A stretch of DNA of 64,000 nucleotides from Muribaculaceae bacterium (lineage in GTDB: Bacteria > Bacillota > Clostridia > Lachnospirales > Lachnospiraceae): positions 13,899 through 77,898 of the forward strand of contig JAMPCA010000005.1 in the NCBI GenBank assembly GCA_023666425.1, written 5' to 3'. The notes under the pieces were generated by a model. The model worked only from the letters and a program-made list of their open reading frames with translations, was not told the DNA's origin and searched no databases. The position numbers were made by a program, and so were the translations under genes. Each line of letters starts with the position of its first letter. Positions within the stretch are counted from its first letter, which is position 1. This document shows positions 5,109 to 17,002 of the stretch, piece after piece.

Positions 5109-5813
5109 ATGGAGCTAAAAATTGACCGACTGACAAAACAATACAAGAATAAGATTGCAGTAGACCGGCTGAGCTATTCCTTCGGGCCGGGGATTTATGG
5201 GCTGCTCGGAGCCAACGGCGCGGGCAAGACGACGCTCATGCGGATGATCTGTGGCATTTTAACGCCCACGGGAGGGACAATCACACTGGACAAAATTGAC
5301 GTGGTAAGCGAGGCGTACCGGGACAGGCTTGGCTATCTGCCGCAGGATTTCGGCTATTATCCGAATTTTACCGGGCGGGATTTTCTTATGTACATGGCGG
5401 CGTTAAAAGGAATCGGAAAAAAGGCGGCGAAGGAGCGTGTGGAAAGTCTGCTTGCACTGGTGGCCATGGAGGATGCCGCTGACAGGAAAATGAAGACTTA
5501 TTCCGGTGGCATGAAGCAGCGCATCGGTATCGCACAGGCGCTTTTAAACGAGCCGGATCTGCTGATTCTCGATGAGCCGACGGCGGGACTGGATCCGAAG
5601 GAGAGAGTGCGCTTCCGCAATCTGATCGCGGAGCTGGGGAAGGGTTCGATCGTGCTGTTGTCCACCCACATTGTATCGGATGTGGATAAGATTGCCGACC
5701 GGATTCTTATGATGAAGGAGGGGCAGCTTGTGTTTGACGGCACAAGAGAGGAGATTACGGGGGATCTGGAGGATTTCTATCTCAGGGAGTTTGAGGAGGG
5801 AGAGCAGATATGA
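5109..5813 (+). CDS. ABC transporter ATP-binding protein
   Basis: The 234-residue ATPase shows Walker A (GANGAGKTT, residues 34-42), the signature YSGGMKQR, Walker B with LLILDEPTAGLDP, and the H-loop STHIVSD. This is the single-domain exporter ATPase type found with separate permeases. The ATG follows a GGAGT-type ribosome site and the end overlaps the permease start by 4 bp, so the two are translationally coupled. The substrate is unknown. Confidence 0.92.
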   Translation: MELKIDRLTKQYKNKIAVDRLSYSFGPGIYGLLGANGAGKTTLMRMICGILTPTGGTITLDKIDVVSEAYRDRLGYLPQDFGYYPNFTGRDFLMYMAALKGIGKKAAKERVESLLALVAMEDAADRKMKTYSGGMKQRIGIAQALLNEPDLLILDEPTAGLDPKERVRFRNLIAELGKGSIVLLSTHIVSDVDKIADRILMMKEGQLVFDGTREEITGDLEDFYLREFEEGEQI

Positions 5814-6958
5814 GGCATTTGATTGGCTATGAGATAAAAAAGCTGTTAAAGAGGACGAGTACATGGGCGGTTTTTATTGCAATGTTCGGCGTGCAGGCGT
5901 TTATCGGATTTTCGGGCTACATCGGGGATTTTATGTATGGCGATACGCCGGGAGTTGAGCAGGCTGCCGCGGAAAAAATCGTGGGGCGCACACTGGACGA
6001 ATCGCTGGTTGCGGAGGTCGCCGAAGTGGAAGCGGAGATTGCGGAACTCGGGGAGGGCTTCTGGAAGTCAGATGTGTATAAGACACAGATTCTGCCCTAC
6101 ATGGATCTGCGGGCAAAGCTTTTCTATGGCGGAGTGGGGGCAGACGCCACAGGGGATATTTACCGGCTCCGCGAAAATCTGCAGTCTGCATTGTTTGACA
6201 GCTATGGCCTCACGGACAGCGAGAAGGCACACTGGGAAAAGCAGGAGGCAGATGTTGAAAAGCCCTTTGTCTATGCATATGCCGGGACATGGGAAGCACT
6301 GTCGAGCATGAACGGCGTTTATATGACCAGTATGCTGATCACTTTTTTTATCGCAGTCTGCATGGTGGGCGTGTTCACCGAGGAGAGTGCGAAAAAGACA
6401 GACCAGCTCCTTCTGTGTGCGAGATACGGCAGGGAGCCGCTCTATGGGGCGAAGCTCATTGCGGGAAGCGTAGTGGTACTTGCCGCCTCCGTGCTGATTG
6501 AGGGCGTGTATCTGCTGGGGCACTTTCTCTACTATGGCGCATCGGGGTTTGATGAGAGCATTCAGATGGCGCTTGCCTTTATCTTTCCCCATGCGCTTTC
6601 CGTCGGCGGGACCTGCCTGATCATGGTCGGCATCCTGTTTTTGTCCTCGCTGTTGATCGGTCTGATCGCTATGCTTCTGGCACAGCTTTTGCATCATAGT
6701 CTGGGGGCAATGGTAATTCTCATCGGGGGTGTGTTTGCGGCGCGGCTGATTCCGGTTCCGCAGGACTGGCGCGTGCTTTCCATGCTGTGGAATTTAATTC
6801 CCATCAATATGCTGAAAGTGGATCAGGGATTTCTGGAGCTCCGGCTTTATGGGGGACTGACCGGATACCAGTTTGCGCCGCTGGTATACCTCGTGCTTGC
6901 CGTCGTCTGTGTTGTGTCCGGCAGACGGCTCTGGTGCAGGATGCAGATTGGAGGGTGA
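5810..6958 (+). CDS. ABC transporter permease
   Basis: The 382-residue protein has a hydrophobic N-terminal helix, a large extracytoplasmic loop (about residues 45-165), and five further membrane helices. This is the ABC-2-like layout that pairs with single ATPases. The last 349 bp (6610-6958) are repeated almost perfectly at 8011-8359 beyond the nuclease gene. This copy is the complete gene; the downstream one is only a tail. The substrate is unknown; peptide or lipid-active compounds are usual for such exporters. Confidence 0.85.
   Translation: MRHLIGYEIKKLLKRTSTWAVFIAMFGVQAFIGFSGYIGDFMYGDTPGVEQAAAEKIVGRTLDESLVAEVAEVEAEIAELGEGFWKSDVYKTQILPYMDLRAKLFYGGVGADATGDIYRLRENLQSALFDSYGLTDSEKAHWEKQEADVEKPFVYAYAGTWEALSSMNGVYMTSMLITFFIAVCMVGVFTEESAKKTDQLLLCARYGREPLYGAKLIAGSVVVLAASVLIEGVYLLGHFLYYGASGFDESIQMALAFIFPHALSVGGTCLIMVGILFLSSLLIGLIAMLLAQLLHHSLGAMVILIGGVFAARLIPVPQDWRVLSMLWNLIPINMLKVDQGFLELRLYGGLTGYQFAPLVYLVLAVVCVVSGRRLWCRMQIGG
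6610..6958 (+). repeat. 349-bp direct repeat, copy 1 (permease 3' end)
   Basis: This segment and 8011-8359 match at 347 of 349 positions. The visible differences are T versus C at 6910 and A versus C at 6952. Copy 1 is the genuine 3' end of the permease gene. Confidence 0.95.
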
Positions 6959-6974
6959 ATAGAATTGGGGCGGG

Positions 6975-7014
6975 GCATGGGCATGTGTGGCGTCGGACAT
7001 GCCCATGCTTTATT
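6975..7014 (+). terminator. Rho-independent terminator after the ABC operon
   Basis: A perfect 12-bp stem (6975-6986 with 6997-7008) carries a 10-base loop and is followed by TTTATTATT. It serves plus-strand transcription; the convergent nuclease gene ends right beside it. Confidence 0.85.
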
Positions 7015-7801
7015 ATTGATCCACAGATGTAAGCTGTAGGCTTAGCTTTTCAATAAATTCTACGGAAAGGGTTGGGATGGATTTTTTTACCAGTTCGACA
7101 GATGCACCATTCTGCAAAAATAACCTGGCTGTTTCCTTGTCTCTCTCAAGAACTTTTTTATTTGCATATTCTTCAACAACTTGTGTCATAGCGTCAGCTC
7201 CTTCCTTTGATTCTTTAAAATAGCATACCCGATCTGATAATTTTGGAAATTTGTTGTTTTTGCCAGTGCTGTTTTTAAAGTATTGCATTAACTCCGCAAT
7301 ATCAGATCCGTCATTTACGGCACAATTTGCAAATATCCGATGGATGCCATCGTCTACGGAGGTTCCGGTTTCCTTAATGATAGTCTCCAAGTGGTAAATG
7401 GTTTTACCTTCCTGAAATATATCAAATTTAGAAATAAAAATCATATAAATGTCAGGAAGATTTTTATAGTCTAATCCTTTTTCTGTAAAAGTAGTGTCGA
7501 TGTTGGCGCTGTTGAAACGTACACGTTTTACATGATCATCATCATCGGTTTTTTGCATTTCAACATTGATTCTTGATCCATTTTCGTCCTCGCAAAGTAA
7601 ATCAAGGATTACGGAATGTGCCCCAATATTGCGCAGGAAACGTTGTGGCTGTGCATCTATAACTTTCAATTTTGGTTTTTGGAGGATAATCCGCAGGATT
7701 TCCTCGCAAACAGCGTTGTCTTCTGCAATTTTATGAAAAAACATATCATCTATTACATTCAGATGTCTGATGAGTGCCTGCTGTTCTGTGCTTGTCTGCA
7801 A
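7013..7801 (-). CDS. Rpn-family PD-(D/E)XK nuclease / transposase-like protein
   Basis: The 262-residue protein matches the Rpn/PD-(D/E)XK transposase-like family. The N-terminal DDMFFHKIAED segment precedes a nuclease core in which D67, E81 and Q83 (LDLLC and NVEMQ) form the expected D...ExQ site, and a helical C-terminus follows. Rpn proteins are DNA endonucleases reported to promote RecA-independent recombination. Translation seems to start at a TTG with a spaced AAAGGA site. The gene is antisense to its neighbours and AT-richer than them. It is flanked by the 349-bp direct repeat, which points to a recent gain together with duplication of the neighbouring gene tail. Confidence 0.85.
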   Translation of the reverse strand: MQTSTEQQALIRHLNVIDDMFFHKIAEDNAVCEEILRIILQKPKLKVIDAQPQRFLRNIGAHSVILDLLCEDENGSRINVEMQKTDDDDHVKRVRFNSANIDTTFTEKGLDYKNLPDIYMIFISKFDIFQEGKTIYHLETIIKETGTSVDDGIHRIFANCAVNDGSDIAELMQYFKNSTGKNNKFPKLSDRVCYFKESKEGADAMTQVVEEYANKKVLERDKETARLFLQNGASVELVKKSIPTLSVEFIEKLSLQLTSVDQ

Positions 7802-8010
7802 TTTTTTAAATTCCTTTCAGTTTTTATCTTTTAGAGAGTTTGCATTCCTGTAACCTGTGACGGCACCAATTTTCTGATGCCAGGGATATGTAAATAGTAT
7901 ACATTGAAATGTGGCGGTTGAAAAGCATTTTTTGCTGATTGACTGGGTGGAATGCATTCTAAGGCCGTTTTTATTGACAATATATCGCACATGATATGTC
8001 GTTATGGTGT

Positions 8011-8359
8011 GACCTGCCTGATCATGGTCGGCATCCTGTTTTTGTCCTCGCTGTTGATCGGTCTGATCGCTATGCTTCTGGCACAGCTTTTGCATCATAG
8101 TCTGGGGGCAATGGTAATTCTCATCGGGGGTGTGTTTGCGGCGCGGCTGATTCCGGTTCCGCAGGACTGGCGCGTGCTTTCCATGCTGTGGAATTTAATT
8201 CCCATCAATATGCTGAAAGTGGATCAGGGATTTCTGGAGCTCCGGCTTTATGGGGGACTGACCGGATACCAGTTTGCGCCGCTGGTATACCTCGTGCTTG
8301 CCGTCGTCTGCGTTGTGTCCGGCAGACGGCTCTGGTGCAGGATGCAGATTGGCGGGTGA
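8011..8359 (+). pseudogene. Duplicated tail of the ABC permease gene (repeat copy 2)
   Basis: This is a second copy of the last 116 codons of the permease, 99 percent identical to 6610-6958. It has no ribosome site and its upstream sequence is unrelated, so the frame that opens at 7952 is an accidental fusion. The copy ends within a few bases of the stop codon. It looks like debris of the event that placed the Rpn gene here. Confidence 0.9.
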
Positions 8360-8423
8360 ATGGCACTGGCGGAGCTGGATAATTACATATTCTTTTCAAA
8401 TAAAGAAAAAATTTTAAATTTAT

Positions 8424-9555: not shown

Positions 9556-9894
9556 CTATTCGGGGTATGTATAATATTGCTGTTCTTTCAGTATATTTTT
9601 CCAGTCCCTTTCCTCCCGTAATACTCTTAAAATATGAATTTCATTTTTCGGTTCATTGATTATATAAAAAATAATGGACGGTGGAAACGTTTTTTTGAAA
9701 ATAGAATAAGAGCGGTAATAAATATGTGTGTTGCCATAGAAACCACCCGTATAACCAATATCCTTTATCTGTTGTCTTATTTCTTTTTCAAATCTGTCGG
9801 CACGACTTTTTCCAAAATTCTGTTCAATGTAATCCGCAATGTCTGTCAAATCGTATATTGCTTCCCGCGTCAAAACAATTTTACGCTCCTGCAT
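9556..9894 (-). CDS. RelE/ParE-family toxin
   Basis: The 112-residue protein begins with KIVLTREAIYDLTDIADYI, the RelE/ParE pattern of a first strand followed by a helical hairpin. It ends with the ILRVLREERDW segment typical of this superfamily. Members inhibit translation (RelE) or DNA gyrase (ParE); the sequence here does not decide between them. It overlaps the upstream antitoxin gene by 14 bp, in the usual antitoxin-toxin order. It appears intact, unlike most other toxin genes in this window. Confidence 0.85.
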   Translation of the reverse strand: MQERKIVLTREAIYDLTDIADYIEQNFGKSRADRFEKEIRQQIKDIGYTGGFYGNTHIYYRSYSIFKKTFPPSIIFYIINEPKNEIHILRVLREERDWKNILKEQQYYTYPE

Positions 9895-10054
9895 TTCTCC
9901 TTATATCCCTCAATTCTGTAATTTTTTGAAATGCCTCATCAAGCGGAAGTTCCCTGCCCGCTTCCATGTCATCTATTCCTTTGTCCAACATTTGGAATAG
10001 ATTATCATTCTGGTGCAAAATATTTTTGTTATCTAATGTCATATCCATATCCAT
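9881..10054 (-). CDS. Antitoxin of the RelE/ParE module
   Basis: This small acidic protein (57 residues from the start chosen here) contains NILHQNDNLFQMLDKGIDDM and a GRELPLDEAFQKI segment, as in antitoxins found beside RelE/ParE toxins in Clostridia. An in-frame ATG at 10084 lies inside the predicted -10 box (10083-10088), so it cannot be the start. The AAGGAG site places the start at 10054 or 10048. DNA-binding structure was not identified by eye. Confidence 0.7.
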   Translation of the reverse strand: MDMDMTLDNKNILHQNDNLFQMLDKGIDDMEAGRELPLDEAFQKITELRDIRRNAGA

Positions 10055-10082
10055 TGCTCCTTGCTTTCTTTTTCGTATTCCC

Positions 10083-10111
10083 ATAGTATCATAAATCTAC
10101 TGATTTTTCAA
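10083..10111 (-). promoter_or_regulatory. Promoter of the RelE/ParE module
   Basis: On the minus strand TTGAAA (10106-10111), a 17-bp spacer and TACTAT (10083-10088) form a sigma-A promoter. It decides the antitoxin start codon, as explained for that gene. Confidence 0.7.
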
Positions 10112-10203
10112 GCCGGAACCCGCTTCGTTTGATGGAAAACAGGAACCAGTCCCGCCTGATGGGAAAACAGACAGATTGTTGGGAAAAGTTTGTAGCATAT
10201 AAG

Positions 10204-10234
10204 AAAAAGAAGCCGCCGGAGCGACCTCTTTTTC
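10204..10234 (-). terminator. Flagellin terminator, possibly bidirectional
   Basis: An 8-bp G/C-rich stem (10209-10216 with 10221-10228, loop CGGA) has a T-tract on both sides: TTTTTCTT on the minus strand and TTTTTCT on the plus strand. It lies about 70 bp after the flagellin stop. Confidence 0.8.
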
Positions 10235-10294
10235 TGGTAGTAGTAGTAATAGTAATACAGCAATATGAAATTTGCTTTTGAAGCCCGGACAATA

Positions 10295-11845
10295 TTATCC
10301 GAGTAAGGAAAGCACACCCTGATTCGACTGGTTTGCCTGTGCGAGCATTGACTGACCCGCCTGTGCAAGAATGTTGTTCTTGCTGTAGTTCACCATCTCC
10401 TCAGCCATATCGGTATCGCGGATCTGGGACTCTGCACTTGTGGTATTTTCCACGACATTATCCAGGTTCGCAATTGTGTGCTCAAGACGGTTCTGAACCG
10501 CACCGAGAGCAGATCTCTGGGCAGAAACCTTTGCGATTGCATCTGCGATGGAATCAATCGCGTAGGTCGCCTTTGCACCCGTGTTGTCCACGAGGTTTAA
10601 GCCCTTTACGCCGAGTCCCGCGGAATCCATCGTGTCGATTGTGGTAGCAATCTTGTTCGTCTCGTCCGCGTCTGCGCCTACATGAAGTGTAAACTGTAAG
10701 CCCTGCGTAACAGTACGGTGTCCTTCTTCGATATAGAAGGATACCTGTGTTGCGTCTGAGGTATAATAGCCTGCATCACTCTTTGTAACAGAGAGATCTG
10801 TCTCGCCTTTGTTACCTACTTTGGCAACGCCTACCTTTGCTTCCTGTCCCGGATCTGTCCCGATATTGCTTGCTTTGCGAAGCTCATCCTGAATCAGCTC
10901 GTAAGCCTTTTTTGCAGAGATGACGGATGCATCGTTGTCCCCGATACCGTCAGCCTGCTTCTCGTATACAAAGTTTGTCTGTGTGGTCACGGTTCCGTCA
11001 TCGTTCGTTATTTTCACTTCTTCCGTGACGGGATCGCCGTTTTCGTCGAGCTTTTTGACAACATCTTCCGTCATAGCGACATAAGTCTGGGTTCCCGCGA
11101 TAACAGTAGAGCCATCGCGGACAAGAGCTTTCAGATTCTCCTTTGAAAGCTTATTCTCGGTCGTGTCCTCTTTTTCGCCCTCGCCGGCAATCTTGTACTC
11201 TGTTCCGTCAATGGTGACTGTCTTGTATTGTGTCTCATCAAGCTTCTCAATTGCGGTTCTTACATTCTCAATTGTGTTACCAATGGTATAGCCCTTGGAA
11301 CCGATGGTAATGGTGTCACCATTCTTGAGGGCTGTCATGGTAAATGTAACCTTGCCGGTGCCCACACCCTTGAGTGTACCGTCAATACCCGCGTCTTTGG
11401 CATTGATCTTGACCTCAGAGGTCTTGCCGTTGCCCTTCAGCAGATAAGTCTCGTTGAACTTCGTAGTCTCGGCAACGCGGTCGATCTCAGTGGTGAGCTG
11501 ATCGATCTCGTTCTGAATAGAGGTACGGTCGGACTCGCTGTTCGTGCCGTTGGCTGCCTGAACTGCCAGCTCATTCATACGCTGTAACATAGAATGCACT
11601 TCTGTCAGGGCGCCTTCCGCTGTCTGCACTGCAGAGATACCGTCCTGCGCGTTCGTGGATGCGCGGTCCAGACCACGAATCTGCTTGCGCATCTTCTCAG
11701 AAATGGAAAGACCCGCTGCATCGTCGGCCGCCCGGTTAATCTTGTAACCGCTGGAAAGCTTCTCTGAGGACTTGGACTGTGCGCCTGTTGTGACATTGAG
11801 CATTCTGTTGGCATTCATTGCCTGCATGTTGTGTTGTACTACCAT
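10295..11845 (-). CDS. fliC: Flagellin
   Basis: The 516-residue protein has the conserved flagellin D0/D1 N-terminus (NMQAMNANRML, SEKLSSGYKINRAADDAAG, QKIRGLDRA-like KQIRGLDRAS) and C-terminus (RSALGAVQNRLEHTIANLDN, then NILAQAGQSMLAQANQS and GVLSLLG). The middle, about residues 150-410, is the variable, surface-exposed region. It is exported by the flagellar type III apparatus and polymerises into the filament. The ATG follows a strong AAGGAGGTA site. A 12-bp hairpin lies just upstream of the ribosome site. A csrA gene on the same strand lies 174 bp upstream; in Bacillus CsrA represses hag translation. No convincing sigma-28 promoter was recognised. Confidence 0.95.
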   Translation of the reverse strand: MVVQHNMQAMNANRMLNVTTGAQSKSSEKLSSGYKINRAADDAAGLSISEKMRKQIRGLDRASTNAQDGISAVQTAEGALTEVHSMLQRMNELAVQAANGTNSESDRTSIQNEIDQLTTEIDRVAETTKFNETYLLKGNGKTSEVKINAKDAGIDGTLKGVGTGKVTFTMTALKNGDTITIGSKGYTIGNTIENVRTAIEKLDETQYKTVTIDGTEYKIAGEGEKEDTTENKLSKENLKALVRDGSTVIAGTQTYVAMTEDVVKKLDENGDPVTEEVKITNDDGTVTTQTNFVYEKQADGIGDNDASVISAKKAYELIQDELRKASNIGTDPGQEAKVGVAKVGNKGETDLSVTKSDAGYYTSDATQVSFYIEEGHRTVTQGLQFTLHVGADADETNKIATTIDTMDSAGLGVKGLNLVDNTGAKATYAIDSIADAIAKVSAQRSALGAVQNRLEHTIANLDNVVENTTSAESQIRDTDMAEEMVNYSKNNILAQAGQSMLAQANQSNQGVLSLLG

Positions 11846-11866
11846 AAGTTTACCTCCTTGTAAGTT

Positions 11867-11892
11867 GTAATGTTTTCATGTGAAAATATTAC
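11867..11892 (-). promoter_or_regulatory. Flagellin leader hairpin next to the ribosome site
   Basis: GTAATATTTTCA and its near-complement (one G-U pair) form a hairpin in the mRNA leader, ending 7 bases before AAGGAGGTA (11851-11859). GGA triplets lie in the ribosome site and in the AGGGGAAGT segment just upstream of the hairpin. CsrA recognises GGA, so this is a plausible CsrA-responsive leader. Confidence 0.5.
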
Positions 11893-12019
11893 TTCCCCTA
11901 AAATCCGTTTATGGGGCTGCATGGTTGATAAGTGACTTTATAATTGACGGAACCCCTAGGTTAGCTCCGCTAATTATCTGCTGTAATGCTCCGAAGGAGT
12001 ATTGCCTGTTGTAATACGC

Positions 12020-12271
12020 CTACTTCCCTTTGCGCTTCTCCTGCATGATGATATCCACAATCTGCCGCTGCGCCTCCTCGGAGAGGGCAGCGTCCCTATA
12101 GTAGCCGGTAGGCTTTTTGCGGCCGTCGCCCATGCTGCTTCTGGCAATCGGAATTTCCCTGGGCGCGTCCACCAGAAGCTGGATATTGTTTCCGATGCCT
12201 CCGGCCAAAACGACCCGAATGTCGTCTCCGATATTGATGTACTCACCGGGATGTAAAGAAAGCTTCAACAT
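12020..12271 (-). CDS. csrA: CsrA-family carbon storage/flagellin translation regulator
   Basis: The 83-residue protein starts MLKLSLHPGEYINIGDDI and continues with an APREIPIAR segment, the CsrA core with the conserved GE..IGD and AP.E..I.R elements. CsrA dimers bind GGA motifs in mRNA leaders. It is longer than usual (60-75 residues) because of a basic C-terminal extension. A GGAGG site precedes the ATG. It lies between the recombinase gene and flagellin, all on the minus strand. In Bacillus its partner FliW is encoded next door; no fliW is visible here. Confidence 0.85.
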   Translation of the reverse strand: MLKLSLHPGEYINIGDDIRVVLAGGIGNNIQLLVDAPREIPIARSSMGDGRKKPTGYYRDAALSEEAQRQIVDIIMQEKRKGK

Positions 12272-12324
12272 ATTTTCGACCTCCGCGTTTTATAATTTTT
12301 GGTCATTTGGGGGAAGAATAAGTT

Positions 12325-12352
12325 TGTGACACAATGTATGATTGTGTTACAT
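12325..12352. repeat. Left inverted recombination-like site
   Basis: This 28-bp element is an imperfect palindrome: arms GTGACACAAT and ATTGTGTTAC around a 5-bp asymmetric centre GTATG. It matches the reverse complement of the site at 13023-13050 at 27 of 28 positions. The centre is therefore in opposite orientation in the two sites. It touches the 3' end of the recombinase gene. Confidence 0.8.
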
Positions 12353-12353
12353 T

Positions 12354-12935
12354 TCAGATGGCGATATTGCGGAAAACCTCGTCCCGCTCGTCCTGGCTGA
12401 TGCCAAGATAGCGTTTGGTAATTTCATAGGAAGAATGCTGGTAGATATCCATGAGCATGGCCGGGGGCGTGCCCTGCTTCCACGCATGGTAGCCGAAAGT
12501 CTTTCGCAGGGAATGCGGGCTGATCACGCCGGAGATTCCGCATTTTTCTGCGGCCTCCCGAATGATTCGCCAGGCCTGCACCCGGTTCAGGCAGGGGGTG
12601 CGGGAGCCGGGAAAAAGGAAAGTATCGGCACACAGCTCACCTTTTTTAAGGCTGTCCCGGTAATCACTGAGCGCCTGCCGGATACTGTCATTGATAAAAA
12701 TCTGCGTCTCTTTTCCGGTCTTTTTCTCCGTCACCACCAGATGCCCGGGGCAGGAGGCCTTGGAAAAATCATAGATATCGCCCCAGCGCAGGGTAAGAAT
12801 GTCGGAGATGCGCAGGGCGGTGTTGAGGGCGACGGTAATCAGCAGATAATTTCTGCTGTCCGGCTCCATGACGCGGTAAAAGTCTTTAAAAAGCTGCAGC
12901 TGTTTTGGGTTTTTGATGGGTTCTGCTCGGTTCAT
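12354..12935 (-). CDS. Small tyrosine recombinase (FimB/FimE-size, catalytic domain only)
   Basis: The 193-residue protein is a bare tyrosine recombinase catalytic domain. The expected residues are visible: R42 (ALRISDIL), a Lys at 71-72 in the beta-hairpin, H141 and R144 (SPHSLRKTFG), H167 (YQHSS) and the nucleophile Y176 (KRYLGIS). The usual N-terminal core-binding domain is absent, as in FimB/FimE invertases of about 200 residues. AGGAGG precedes the start. The gene is bracketed by two near-identical sites in inverted orientation, each shaped like a recombinase core site. I infer it is a DNA invertase acting on its own cassette. Confidence 0.85.
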   Translation of the reverse strand: MNRAEPIKNPKQLQLFKDFYRVMEPDSRNYLLITVALNTALRISDILTLRWGDIYDFSKASCPGHLVVTEKKTGKETQIFINDSIRQALSDYRDSLKKGELCADTFLFPGSRTPCLNRVQAWRIIREAAEKCGISGVISPHSLRKTFGYHAWKQGTPPAMLMDIYQHSSYEITKRYLGISQDERDEVFRNIAI

Positions 12936-13017
12936 AGACGCCTCCTAACGTAAAAAATAAAAAAATTTGAAAAAAGGGGTTAAGTATTTCCCACTGCTGC
13001 CGATATAACTGGCATAG

Positions 13018-13054
13018 GGAGATGTAACACAATCATACATTGTGTTACATCTCC
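13018..13054. repeat. Right inverted recombination-like site within a longer palindrome
   Basis: Arms of 16 bp (13018-13033 and 13039-13054, inner halves GTAACACAAT and ATTGTGTTAC) flank a 5-bp centre CATAC. Its inner 28 bp (13023-13050) match the left site in reverse orientation. It lies between the divergently transcribed recombinase and sensor-kinase genes. Confidence 0.8.
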
Positions 13055-13077
13055 TGTTTTTGCGTGCAAAACGTCAA

Positions 13078-13106
13078 TTGCTTTCCCGGGGATTTTATGG
13101 TATCGT
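13078..13106 (+). promoter_or_regulatory. Possible sigma-A promoter of the hybrid sensor kinase
   Basis: TTGCTT (13078-13083), 17 bp and TATCGT (13101-13106) are reasonable but imperfect boxes, 50 bp upstream of the kinase start. The right inverted site lies immediately upstream. Confidence 0.45.
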
Positions 13107-13156
13107 AAAATAGTATTTTCGGATTTGAAAAAATACGAGAGGAGAAGGTTTTTATA

Positions 13157-16100
13157 ATGAGAGGGAAGAAGGTTCTATTTTTGATGGCCTTTCTACTTTT
13201 ACTGACGGGATGCAGGGGCGGGCAGGTCAGTGATATTTCGGAAAAGCCGGTAGAGATGGTTGAAGCGGCGGAGTCCGCGAAGCAGGACGGGGAACGGAGC
13301 TACGACTTTATATTTGTCTGTCCCATCGTCGAGAATGAGTACTGGGAGTCCTGTGTGGAGGGGATGCAGAGGGCGGATGAGGAACTGGGTACCAGCACGA
13401 AGGTCATCGGCCCGGGGACAGCCAATAATTTTACCACGGAGATTGTGGGATATATGGAACAGGCGATTGAGGAGAGGCCGGACGGCATCATGGTCTATGC
13501 GGGCATCGAGGCGCTGTTTCCTCTGATCGAGCAGGCCACCGGGCTTGGGATTCCGGTGCTGGCTTTGGACAGTGACGCTCCTGATACCTCAAGGGTCGCC
13601 TATGTGGGCACAGACGCCTTTCACTCCGGCTACAAGGCGGGAGAGACGATGGTGGAACTTACCGGAGGGTCGGCGAAGGTGGGGCTTTTGGTGAGCTCCA
13701 GATCGGCAGAGAAAGAGATGCAGGTCATGGACGCTTTTGCGGACGCTGTCGCCGATTATGACATTGAGATTGTGGCGATGGAGGAGACGAACGCCGACCC
13801 GGGGGTGGCGGAGGAGAAGACCCGCCAGATGCTCACGGAGCACCCGGAGATCAATGCGATGTTCAATACGGCAGGCTACAATGTCACCGGCGCCGCCCGG
13901 GCAAAGAGGGCGATGGGACGGGAAGATCTGGTGCTGCTGGGATTTGACGATATAGAGGAGAATCTGCGTTATGTCCGGGAGGGCGTAATCAATGCGATTT
14001 TTGTGCAGAGGATTGAGCAGGTGGGCTACCAGGGAGTCCGGCTGATGAAGGAATGCATAGACAGAGGCTCTCTTCTTATGGACAGCTACGATACCGGAAC
14101 GATAAAAGTCACAAAGGAGAATGTGGATACTTACAATCTGCCGGAGCTGCTGGGGGAGGATGAGGGCAGAAAAGTCCGGGTGGGTTACTATACCGGAGAT
14201 ATTGCCTTTCAGAACGGCTTTGAGGAGAGCGCGAGAAAGTCCGGCTACGCCTACGAATACTATCAGGGGCTGAGCACGCTGACCGGCTGGAGCTACGAGT
14301 ATGTGTACGGCACGCGGACAGAGATTATGGAACAGCTTCTGGCCGGAGACGTGGATATCGTTGCGGGCGTCTACAAGACAGACGAGAGAAAAAAGCAGAT
14401 GCTCTTTTCGAAGCTGGATATGGGGCTGGAGGGGGAACCAAGGTATTTTGTTGTCAGCCCTGGAAAAGTAGAGCTTTTGCAGGAGCTGGATTACGCCATG
14501 GAGGAGCTTTTGTATTCCATGCCGGAATACCAGGCGTCACTGTGGCAGAAGTATTACGGGCAGGCGTCGCAGCAGCAGATACTGACGGAGAATGAAAGCG
14601 CGTGGCTGGCCGAAAGGGATACGCTTACGATCGGCTATGTCAGGCACAATCTTCCACTCTGCGACCAGGATGAGAACGGAGAACCCACGGGCGTTGTTTT
14701 GGATCTGACGGAGTTTCTGGCGGATTATCTGCGGGTGGAGATAGCAACGCTCTGCTATGAAAACGTGTCGCTGATGGAGGAGGGGCTTCTGGCCGGAGAG
14801 ATTGATATGGCCTTTCCCGTGTACTCTGACCTCTGGCTCACAGAGAGCAGGGGATTTCGGCAGACCGACCCCATTGTCAGCGACCGGGTGATGGTGGTTT
14901 ACAATGGAAGCTATACCAGCGATCTGATGGAGCGGGTGGTTCTGACGCAGACGGAGCTGGGGCAGAGATATTATCTGGAATCCTACTATCCTGATACGGA
15001 GGTGGTTTTTTATGATTCCAGAGAGGCGGTCTTCGACGCGATTGAGCGGGGCGAGGAGCGCTGCATCGTTGGAAGCGCCAGCATTCTCCAGCGTTTTATA
15101 AACGAGCACGAGGAGTACCGGAATATGAATGTCGCGTATCTGGACATTCCGAAGGATTTCTGTCTGGAGGTGACGCAGGAGAATGGCATTTTGGCAGGTA
15201 TACTGAACAAGGCAATTCTGCAGACCGGCAGCGCAAAGATCAACGGATCCATGATGCATTACTCCAGTGTGGAAAAAAGCTACACGTTCATGGATTTTCT
15301 CCGCCGCTATTCCGTGACGGTCATCACCATACTGTGCATTTTCTTTGCAGTTTTGCTGTGGGTGTTCCTCGCCTACCAGCGCAGGACAAGGCATTTTAAC
15401 GAAGAGCAGGAGAAGAGCCGCAGGGCTTTGGAGGAGGCGCTGGTGGCGGCGAAGGTTGCCAGCGAGGCAAAGACTACGTTTCTTTCCAGCATGAGTCACG
15501 ATATCCGCACGCCCATGAACGCGATTGTGGGTATGACGACCATTGCCATGAAGCATCTTGGCGACAGGGAGAAGCTTAGGGACTGTCTGGATAAGATCAA
15601 CGTTTCCAGCCATCATCTGCTGACGCTGATCAACGATGTGCTGGATATCTCGAAGATTGAGAGCGGCAGGCTGACATTAAATCCTGTGGTCTTTTCCCTG
15701 CGGGATATGCTGACAACACTGGTAAATATTGTACGTCCCCAGATTGTGGCGAAAGATCTGCAGTTTGACATCCATGTCCGGGGGATTGATTACGAGACGG
15801 TGCTGGCCGACGAGGTGCGGGTAAACCAGATCTTCATCAATATATTGTCAAATGCGGTGAAATACACGCCGGAGGGCGGCCGGGTGGTACTGGGGCTGAC
15901 GGAGGAAACGCTGGCGGACGGCAGGACGGTGCGGCTGGTCTACACGGTTGAGGACAGCGGCATCGGCATGTCCAAAGAGTTCATGGAGACGATGTACGAG
16001 ACTTTTGCCAGAGCGACGGACAGCCGGATCAACGAGATTCAGGGCACCGGGCTGGGGCTTGCCATTGTCAGGCAGATGGTGGATATGCTGGGAGGAACCA

Positions 16101-17002
16101 TCGACTGTCAGAGTGAGGAAAACAAGGGCACAAAATTTACGGTCACGCTCGAGCTTCCGGCTGGCCGGGAGGAGCAAAAGCTCATGCTGCCTGCAATCCC
16201 GGTTCTCATAGTGGACGACGACGGGATTTTTCTGGACAGTGCAAAAGAGGTACTGGCAGATCTGGGTACGCTGCCCGAAACCGCGGAGAGCGGGGAGGCG
16301 GCCGTTGCACTGGTGCAGGCGAAGCGCGAAGAGGGCGGGGATTACCCGGTGGTGATCGTGGACTGGAAGATGCCCGGTATGGACGGATTGCAGACCGTCC
16401 GGGAGATCCGGCGCATCATGGGCAGCCGCGTGTCCATTATACTGGTCAGCGCATACGACTGGACGGATATCGAGAGCGAGGCCGAGGGCAGCGGCGCCGA
16501 CGGCTTTATCAGCAAGCCCCTGTTCCGCTCCTATATCTATGAGAAGCTGCAGGAGATGCTGCAGCCGAAGGATCAGGAGACTGTCATCGCAGAGACGGGC
16601 GGCGATGACCTGACGGGGCGGCGTCTGCTGATTGCCGAGGACAACGACCTGAACTGGGAGATTATCTCGGAGCTTTTGACCATGCAGGGCATCACCGCGG
16701 ACTGGGCGCCGAACGGACAGCTCTGTGTGGATATGCTGACCGCCGCGCCTCCGGGAACCTACGACCTGATTCTCATGGACGTGCAGATGCCGGTGATGAA
16801 CGGGCGGGAAGCGACCCGGATGATCCGGGAGGACAGCCGGGAGTATATCAGGAATATCCCGATCATTGCCATGACCGCGGACGCTTTTGCGGAGGATATC
16901 GCAGAGAGTTTAGCCTGCGGTATGAACGGCCATGTATCCAAGCCGGTAGATATGAATATACTTTGTCAGGAGATGTTAAAGGCGCTGGGCTTTAGGTCGT
17001 GA
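13157..17002 (+). CDS. Hybrid sensor histidine kinase with three extracytoplasmic binding modules
   Basis: The 1281-residue protein opens with a lipoprotein-type signal (LLLLTGC, Cys19). A sugar-type periplasmic binding domain (about 50-325) is followed by two amino-acid-type solute-binding (SBP_bac_3-like) domains (about 340-470 and 490-705), the second starting at LTIGYVRHNLPL. A membrane helix (about 718-738) leads to HisKA with H781 (SMSHDIRTPMNA), an HATPase with ILSNAVKYTPEGG and GTGLGLAIV, then two receiver domains with phospho-acceptors D1069 (VDWKMPGMDG) and D1208 (LMDVQMPVMNG). It probably senses a sugar plus another solute. No separate response regulator lies nearby. The second kinase at the right end of the window has a closely similar C-terminus. 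Confidence 0.9.
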   Translation: MRGKKVLFLMAFLLLLTGCRGGQVSDISEKPVEMVEAAESAKQDGERSYDFIFVCPIVENEYWESCVEGMQRADEELGTSTKVIGPGTANNFTTEIVGYMEQAIEERPDGIMVYAGIEALFPLIEQATGLGIPVLALDSDAPDTSRVAYVGTDAFHSGYKAGETMVELTGGSAKVGLLVSSRSAEKEMQVMDAFADAVADYDIEIVAMEETNADPGVAEEKTRQMLTEHPEINAMFNTAGYNVTGAARAKRAMGREDLVLLGFDDIEENLRYVREGVINAIFVQRIEQVGYQGVRLMKECIDRGSLLMDSYDTGTIKVTKENVDTYNLPELLGEDEGRKVRVGYYTGDIAFQNGFEESARKSGYAYEYYQGLSTLTGWSYEYVYGTRTEIMEQLLAGDVDIVAGVYKTDERKKQMLFSKLDMGLEGEPRYFVVSPGKVELLQELDYAMEELLYSMPEYQASLWQKYYGQASQQQILTENESAWLAERDTLTIGYVRHNLPLCDQDENGEPTGVVLDLTEFLADYLRVEIATLCYENVSLMEEGLLAGEIDMAFPVYSDLWLTESRGFRQTDPIVSDRVMVVYNGSYTSDLMERVVLTQTELGQRYYLESYYPDTEVVFYDSREAVFDAIERGEERCIVGSASILQRFINEHEEYRNMNVAYLDIPKDFCLEVTQENGILAGILNKAILQTGSAKINGSMMHYSSVEKSYTFMDFLRRYSVTVITILCIFFAVLLWVFLAYQRRTRHFNEEQEKSRRALEEALVAAKVASEAKTTFLSSMSHDIRTPMNAIVGMTTIAMKHLGDREKLRDCLDKINVSSHHLLTLINDVLDISKIESGRLTLNPVVFSLRDMLTTLVNIVRPQIVAKDLQFDIHVRGIDYETVLADEVRVNQIFINILSNAVKYTPEGGRVVLGLTEETLADGRTVRLVYTVEDSGIGMSKEFMETMYETFARATDSRINEIQGTGLGLAIVRQMVDMLGGTIDCQSEENKGTKFTVTLELPAGREEQKLMLPAIPVLIVDDDGIFLDSAKEVLADLGTLPETAESGEAAVALVQAKREEGGDYPVVIVDWKMPGMDGLQTVREIRRIMGSRVSIILVSAYDWTDIESEAEGSGADGFISKPLFRSYIYEKLQEMLQPKDQETVIAETGGDDLTGRRLLIAEDNDLNWEIISELLTMQGITADWAPNGQLCVDMLTAAPPGTYDLILMDVQMPVMNGREATRMIREDSREYIRNIPIIAMTADAFAEDIAESLACGMNGHVSKPVDMNILCQEMLKALGFRS

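Follow-up and report, generated by a model that had tools for sequence, protein, structure and literature searches.

Does a recombinase gene lying between inverted repeats beside a flagellin unit mark a phase switch, and if so, what does it switch? The locus that raises this question sits in a 64,000-nucleotide stretch of contig JAMPCA010000005.1 (assembly GCA_023666425.1), from a bacterium deposited as Muribaculaceae and placed by its lineage in the Lachnospiraceae; we call this whole stretch the window. An earlier inspection without database searches, referred to here as the sequence-only reading, had pointed out a tyrosine recombinase between two inverted sites and proposed that inversion turns the recombinase from csrA and flagellin toward a sensor kinase. 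We consider it highly likely that the locus encodes a self-contained flagellin phase switch operating by inversion, with the promoter inside the inverted segment, and comparison with relatives suggests that this switch is conserved, probably active, and of a new architecture. The features concerned are listed below by position in the window.

10295..11845, (-) strand: flagellin, 516 residues, second gene of the putatively switched unit
12020..12271, (-) strand: csrA paralog, divergent, first gene of the putatively switched unit
12325..12351, (+) strand: left (csrA-proximal) site, TGTGACACAAT-GTATG-ATTGTGTTACA, an 11-5-11 layout with core GTATG
12354..12935, (-) strand: tyrosine recombinase, 193 residues, Phage_integrase domain (PF00589, E 1.8e-25)
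12980..13006, (+) strand: sigma-28-type promoter motif TTAA-N15-GCCGATAT, in the segment, in the gap that separates the right site from the recombinase start
13017..13065, (+) strand: intrinsic-terminator-like hairpin, formed by the distal site together with GTTTTT, immediately past the outward promoter
13023..13049, (+) strand: right (distal) site, TGTAACACAAT-CATAC-ATTGTGTTACA, core CATAC
13157-17002, (+) strand: hybrid histidine kinase, right of the segment

The two sites are oppositely oriented and were called as an inverted-repeat pair of 31 nt with 94% complementarity, so that the locus contains a segment bounded by inverted repeats, as in an inverton. Direct reading of 12325-12352 against 13022-13049 gives identity at 27/28 positions, and together with the PF00589 match this bears out the 193-residue recombinase between opposite 28-bp sites that had been described. 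The asymmetric 5-bp centre of each site is also as described, whereas the arms measure 11 bp rather than 10, with one mismatch in the left site; those of the right site extend to 16 bp without a mismatch. Chance matches to the site at up to 3 mismatches average 0.01 in the window, and two matches were found in 0/100 shuffles. No third copy was found at up to 2 mismatches in the bacterium's own assembly (all own-assembly searches covered 2,737,130 bases in 28 contigs, 98% complete), and a role of the sites elsewhere in the genome was rejected because this assembly holds no further copies.

The recombinase consists of a catalytic domain without the N-terminal core-binding domain, its residues 24-187 aligning to positions 121-282 of the 290-residue XerD model. 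It matches two NCBIfam models of tyrosine-type DNA invertases, NF007371 (E 1.9e-12, 47.1 bits against a cut-off of 222) and NF007370 (E 2.7e-8, 33.7 bits against 221), which we take to stand for FimE and FimB, and it scores far under both cut-offs.

The promoter motif points right, into the right site, away from csrA-fliC and opposite to the recombinase. It is at motif level only that the locus has a promoter in the segment directed outward to one side, as expected of an inverton. PMC3720852 gives TAAA-N15-CCGATAT as the sigma-28 consensus in general and, for Butyrivibrio, TAAA-N16-17-MCGATAa. Relative to TAAA, the -35 element of the window is one letter off, and the TTAA and CCGATAT of the window stand 16 bases apart. 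In the sister species (L003, deposited as Blautia sp.), where the recombinase is 94% identical, both sites are present and the orientation is that of the window, both motif elements are retained with a changed spacer. The pattern TTAAGTATTT-N8-10-CCGATA has a single occurrence in the own assembly, at this locus. Directly downstream, the distal site forms a terminator-like hairpin with a stem at 13017-13055 (17 pairs, loop of 5) followed by a T-run. A terminator scan of the region found 2 such sites against 3.8 in shuffles and so proves nothing on its own; the predicted fold is -24.9 kcal/mol in the present (OFF) arrangement and -13.4 in the inverted (ON) arrangement. No long T-run follows in the outer flank of the left site, and the hairpin predicted there for the ON arrangement is accordingly weaker. 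As the promoter is aimed away from csrA-fliC and the right site is a predicted terminator, the window is in the predicted OFF phase, and the outward promoter is probably blocked at present.

To place this locus in context, we used the best 80 of 150 recombinase loci in the contig collection and 30 loci fetched from the genus (26/62 genus genomes); these relatives are mostly Lachnospiraceae. The recombinase is found at E 1e-40 in 19/298 genomes of the family and 37/294 of the order. csrA is present in 71/80 contig loci and 25/30 genus loci, and csrA or flagellin in 74/80. Three features, namely an inverted pair around the recombinase, a sigma-28-type motif facing outward and csrA or flagellin nearby, occur together in 90/112 recombinase rows; 22 rows misfit, 11 of them with neither csrA nor flagellin in the locus. 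After removal of six duplicates, 84 rows remained, 78 OFF and 6 ON, these terms denoting the direction of the promoter relative to csrA-fliC and not expression. L103 is the same place as L049 (class B, OFF), which gives 77 OFF and 6 ON among 83 distinct places, and both members of this pair are included in the counts on 84 and 82 rows. In class A, to which the window's arrangement belongs, the motif lies upstream of the recombinase and divergent from it (14 OFF and 2 ON of 84 rows); in class B it lies downstream in the same direction (64 OFF, 4 ON). The outward motif is present in 84/84 rows by selection, while an inward motif is present in 0/84 in the same intervals, against a chance rate of 1.25% per strand in mononucleotide shuffles. 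A later set was taken under the same criteria (45 loci scanned, 7 dropped as already seen): 11/14 new loci with csrA or flagellin nearby fit (10 OFF, 1 ON), and the motif was found in 1/24 loci without these genes. Locus L160, from another family of the same order, carries an ON-oriented switch of the same plan adjoining csrA-flagellin.

The recombinases and sites are conserved along with the arrangement. Residues R42, K72, K75, H141, R144 and H167 are kept in 82/82 aligned rows and Y176 in 81/82 (L065 and L116 left out, L049/L103 counted twice although one place); we presume that catalytic residues are among them, the lysine being either K72 or K75. Site type mostly tracks recombinase class, with the GTAACACAAT type in class A and the TGCAACATT type in class B, and the exceptions include L006, L022, L028 and L031. 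On a recombinase tree of 81 rows (L065, L116 and L103 left out), classes A and B are separated by one change, which also accounts for the class A architecture with the promoter at the recombinase's other side; for the six ON rows, six changes are required. Sites resembling those of the window also occur in another Lachnospiraceae genome, G111 (loci L131, L132 and L133), where seven were found; those listed form inverted pairs 226-234 bp apart, plus one close to a contig end. NusG-family open reading frames (PF02357) lie beside the sites in L132 and L133 (L132:1303-1914 scores 38.1 bits), and two further ones score at or just below the cut-off; these pairs are possible promoter invertons of other clusters.

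Evidence for past inversion comes from aligning every ON locus to an OFF locus of a relative, with csrA-fliC placed on the right in both. Between L007 (ON) and L005 (OFF), whose recombinases are 86% identical, the segment aligns in inverted orientation (77.8% over 776 bp), while the outer flanks align directly, at 80.7% over 212 bp on the csrA side and 93.9% over 49 bp on the distal side, site included. The same picture is given by L073/L042, L046/L079, L072/L108 and L011/L009, with distal direct matches of 35-46 bp that include the site; in L032/L030 the match is weaker and broken up. At its proximal site, L007 has the inner, promoter-bearing half of the L005 distal site, and the outer halves stay with their flanks, so that the half-sites behave as expected of exchange in the core. 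Inverted segments with direct flanks indicate that these segments have flipped in evolution, and that both orientations exist between species. An invertible segment next to csrA-flagellin had been proposed for the window, and the suggested comparison of orientation in related genomes does reveal both phases, with breakpoints at the sites. Several places are shared by the two genome collections: L092 lies in L003, L095 in L008, L105 in L081, L104 in L072, L103 in L049, L099 in L052 and L135 in L015, and the own locus is L001/L002/L091. L008 is a Roseburia porci record and L081 a R. faecis record (strain M72), containing L095 and L105 letter for letter; as L095 and L105 belong to the genus group of the window's genome, that genome is probably Roseburia-like. 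Among these two collections, which share the places named, no same-species pair with opposite orientation was found.

The terminator prediction also extends to the relatives. T-runs of at least 4 within 14 bases are found outside the distal site in 66/82 rows and outside the proximal site in 9/82 (the doubtful pairs L065 and L060 left out). For the folds, L065, L060 and L103 were left out and 80 of the 81 rows passed a distance-to-end check; the exchange point was set by the palindrome centre, which is off for L072. Leaders that join the promoter-side half to the distal outer half have a mean predicted energy of -20.6 kcal/mol, against -10.7 when it is joined to the proximal outer half, and terminator-like folds are predicted for 79/80 in the OFF arrangement and 8/80 in the ON arrangement. 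This difference means that inversion would usually do two things, namely aim the promoter and weaken the terminator. We therefore picture the switch as follows, on the strength of sequence comparison. The recombinase would bind both inverted sites and invert the segment of about 0.7 kb that holds its own gene and the outward sigma-28-type promoter. In the OFF state, as in the window, the promoter would face the distal site, whose half-sites and T-run would fold into an intrinsic terminator and stop transcription. Inversion to ON would set the promoter before csrA-fliC and join the promoter-side half-site to the proximal outer half, the hairpin would be weaker, and transcription would proceed into the CsrA paralog and flagellin. 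We infer the activity of the recombinase at these sites, reversibility in culture, dependence on sigma-28 and the expression states from this comparison.

The own genome has six Flagellin_N matches, namely this gene, one FlgL-like gene and four others. The four others have sigma-28-type motifs roughly 50-150 bp upstream, with scores of 13.3-15.5 (the distance for L124 was measured from an inner start and is too long, and L126, which looks FlgL-like from its position and low score and was read there in another frame, is not part of this control). No such motif was found between the left site and the start of the switched flagellin, and a fixed sigma-28-type promoter for this gene was rejected on that ground. 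In the relatives, 1/76 switched flagellins has its own motif, a weak one; the score cut-off was 12.5 for the own-genome control and 13.5 for the relatives, and 3/4 own controls also pass 13.5. A paralog with its own sigma-28-type motif lies at C11:83615-84025 (L122) of the own genome, with the N-terminal 140 residues identical to those of the switched flagellin and the middle 84% identical (in a stretch truncated by the end of the locus); an antigenic variant of it may be provided by the switched gene. In eight loci (L037, L041, L050, L068, L073, L076, L079 and L082) a second flagellin without a motif, in some cases with its own csrA, lies downstream of the switched one and on its strand, and these are possible co-switched flagellin arrays. 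A known gene may belong here as well. Locus L130 holds a recombinase, csrA and a flagellin of 539 residues counted from MVVQHNMSAM, and its switch is OFF (row L111). Table 1 of PMC3720852 (2013) gives ROSINTL182_08635 of R. intestinalis as 539 residues beginning MVVQHNMSAM, and reports that no -10 element was found for it. Only from length and N-terminus, the L130 flagellin would be this same gene in the same genome, and the OFF switch would perhaps account for its missing promoter.

The CsrA paralog, an RNA-binding regulator, might be the main output of the switch and the effect on flagellin secondary. csrA precedes flagellin in 76/76 rows in which both were found, and R44, a residue that we take to be important for RNA binding, is kept in 78/78 aligned rows of the switch-linked paralog. 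GGA is frequent in the leaders that separate csrA from flagellin (3.44 per 100 nt against 2.06 in shuffles, 69 leaders), as expected of CsrA targets. However, ribosome-binding sites add to this count, the paralog has lost R6 (replaced by V, L or M), and flagellin follows without its own sigma-28-type motif in 75/76 rows, so that both genes are probably switched together. We think it unlikely that CsrA is the main output. Another csrA is present in the own genome, next to a fliW gene (PF02623).

Several results weigh against an active flagellin switch. The promoters are motif matches and not mapped starts, and no promoter of the recombinase itself was recognised in a sigma-70 scan of 10000-13300, which returned 4 promoter-like sites against 3.6 in shuffles. 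Among the loci with csrA or flagellin nearby, 11 rows of the first set and 3/14 of the later set misfit. L046, which is actually ON, is terminator-like by the same rule, and in 5/6 ON rows the proximal flank contains an 8-nt stretch with at least 5 T. The absence of a motif is not peculiar to switched genes, since 8/10 extra flagellins without a close upstream recombinase also lack one; these eight all follow the switched flagellin on its own strand and may be read from the switch by co-transcription. The window shares the OFF phase with its sister species, and ON is so rare, at 6/83 distinct places, that many loci could be locked or strongly biased. These last two points are also what would be expected if the segment flipped occasionally in evolution and is locked in each species today, as a fossil or near-fossil switch, and broken-looking recombinases were found in two relatives (L177, with one stop, and L116, matched in two pieces). 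On the other hand, the recombinase residues, both sites, the promoter motif and the terminator halves are kept together across many genera, and the ON rows are isolated on the recombinase tree, all of which makes a locked switch improbable in our view.

Alternatively, the sites might not recombine at all and might serve a nearby regulator as operators or as a terminator pair, with the recombinase as a remnant. Palindromes are typical of operators and the distal site does form a terminator-like hairpin, but the conserved recombinase residues, the presence of only two copies in the own assembly and the association of site type with recombinase class argue for recombination. Operator sites were rejected because the segment is found inverted in related species, the breakpoints falling at the sites, and we give this explanation very little weight. 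The proposal that the recombinase transcript carries the signal, reading into csrA-flagellin in the present orientation and, once inverted, into the sensor kinase, describes the neighbouring genes and their directions correctly, but is the least credible of all, as the class B recombinase runs the other way relative to the promoter with the promoter logic unchanged, the kinase is not conserved and the kinase-side flank is a predicted terminator. Recombinase read-through as a switching signal and coupling of motility to the kinase were both rejected for these reasons, and the conserved signal is the sigma-28-type motif pointing opposite to the recombinase. Among the relatives examined, a kinase match of at least 200 aligned residues was found only in the sister species, L035, L049 and L120, many loci having short flanks beyond which a more distant kinase could escape; the kinase is, on this comparison, a non-conserved part of the locus.

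The flagellin switch proposed here recalls several known systems. In Salmonella Hin/fljBA, a recombinase gene of about 190 residues lies inside a 0.7-1 kb segment with inverted sites of 26-27 bp, and the segment promoter drives a flagellin operon that also encodes the RNA-level regulator FljA. The locus of the window shares the recombinase gene in an inverted segment next to a flagellin operon, the segment promoter and an RNA-level regulator in the unit. Hin belongs to the serine recombinases and works with Fis and an enhancer, whereas the enzyme here is a tyrosine recombinase with a Phage_integrase domain and so falls outside the serine invertases; the locus also differs in its sigma-28-type promoter, in a CsrA paralog instead of FljA and in a terminator borne by the site in the OFF state. 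We tentatively entertain the further reading, rather doubtful as a whole, that this is an independently evolved functional counterpart of Hin-FljBA in Lachnospiraceae, built on a tyrosine recombinase, in which the flip exchanges flagellins and does not merely add one. The CsrA paralog of ON cells would then bind the leaders of other flagellins and silence their translation while the partner flagellin is made, and where a switch is followed by a tandem array of csrA-fliC units, as some are, the flip would act on the array as a block.

In the fim switch, the recombinase genes lie outside the segment and control fimbriae. Like FimB and FimE, the recombinase here is a tyrosine recombinase of about 200 residues (193 in this case) without a core-binding domain, and the promoter is in the inverted segment; unlike them, it is encoded inside the segment, the unit is flagellin, and its scores are far below cut-offs of the FimB/FimE type. 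The cwpV/RecV system of Clostridioides difficile (PMC2784873) is likewise an inversion by a tyrosine recombinase in Clostridia with a predicted intrinsic terminator in the OFF state, a feature which the relatives share by prediction (79/80 OFF, 8/80 ON). The cwpV-type promoter lies outside the inverted segment, whereas here the promoter motif and recombinase are inside and move. PMC7446863 describes an invertible element controlling flagella in C. difficile, also a gut member of the Clostridia; that element works once transcription has begun, through Rho in the flgB operon leader. The present locus would act on a single csrA-flagellin unit through promoter orientation. According to PMC11892184, inverton group 139 comprises 33 invertons, 32 of them from Clostridia, linked to a tyrosine-type recombinase group (invertase group 35). 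This group could include relatives of the window's switch, although by word counts the main text of that paper does not mention Roseburia, Lachnospiraceae or flagella. A full-text literature search found no report of an invertible flagellin promoter in Lachnospiraceae, although most subscription journals and bioRxiv were outside its scope and earlier reports may exist. Promoter inversion is known from Hin-like systems; the present architecture appears to be new.

If the flagellin switch is real, whether a strain displays a given flagellin depends on its flip state, which is invisible in gene content, and the switch could explain flagellin genes that apparently lack promoters. According to PMC3720852, the host is stimulated by flagellins of Roseburia and related commensals. 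The same arrangement is present in many related gut bacteria and could let carriers hide or show a protein recognised by the immune system, and existing long-read and metagenome data should allow the flip state to be read.

Elsewhere in the window, an open reading frame of the PD-(D/E)XK transposase family (7013-7801) lies between two copies of the end of an ABC-2-permease-like open reading frame, at 5810-6958 (just below the Pfam cut-off) and 7952-8359, the whole region spanning 5810-8380. Beyond the flagellin gene, 9556-10084 holds a ParE-like open reading frame (PF05016) and an overlapping small upstream one without a family match, a possible toxin-antitoxin pair.
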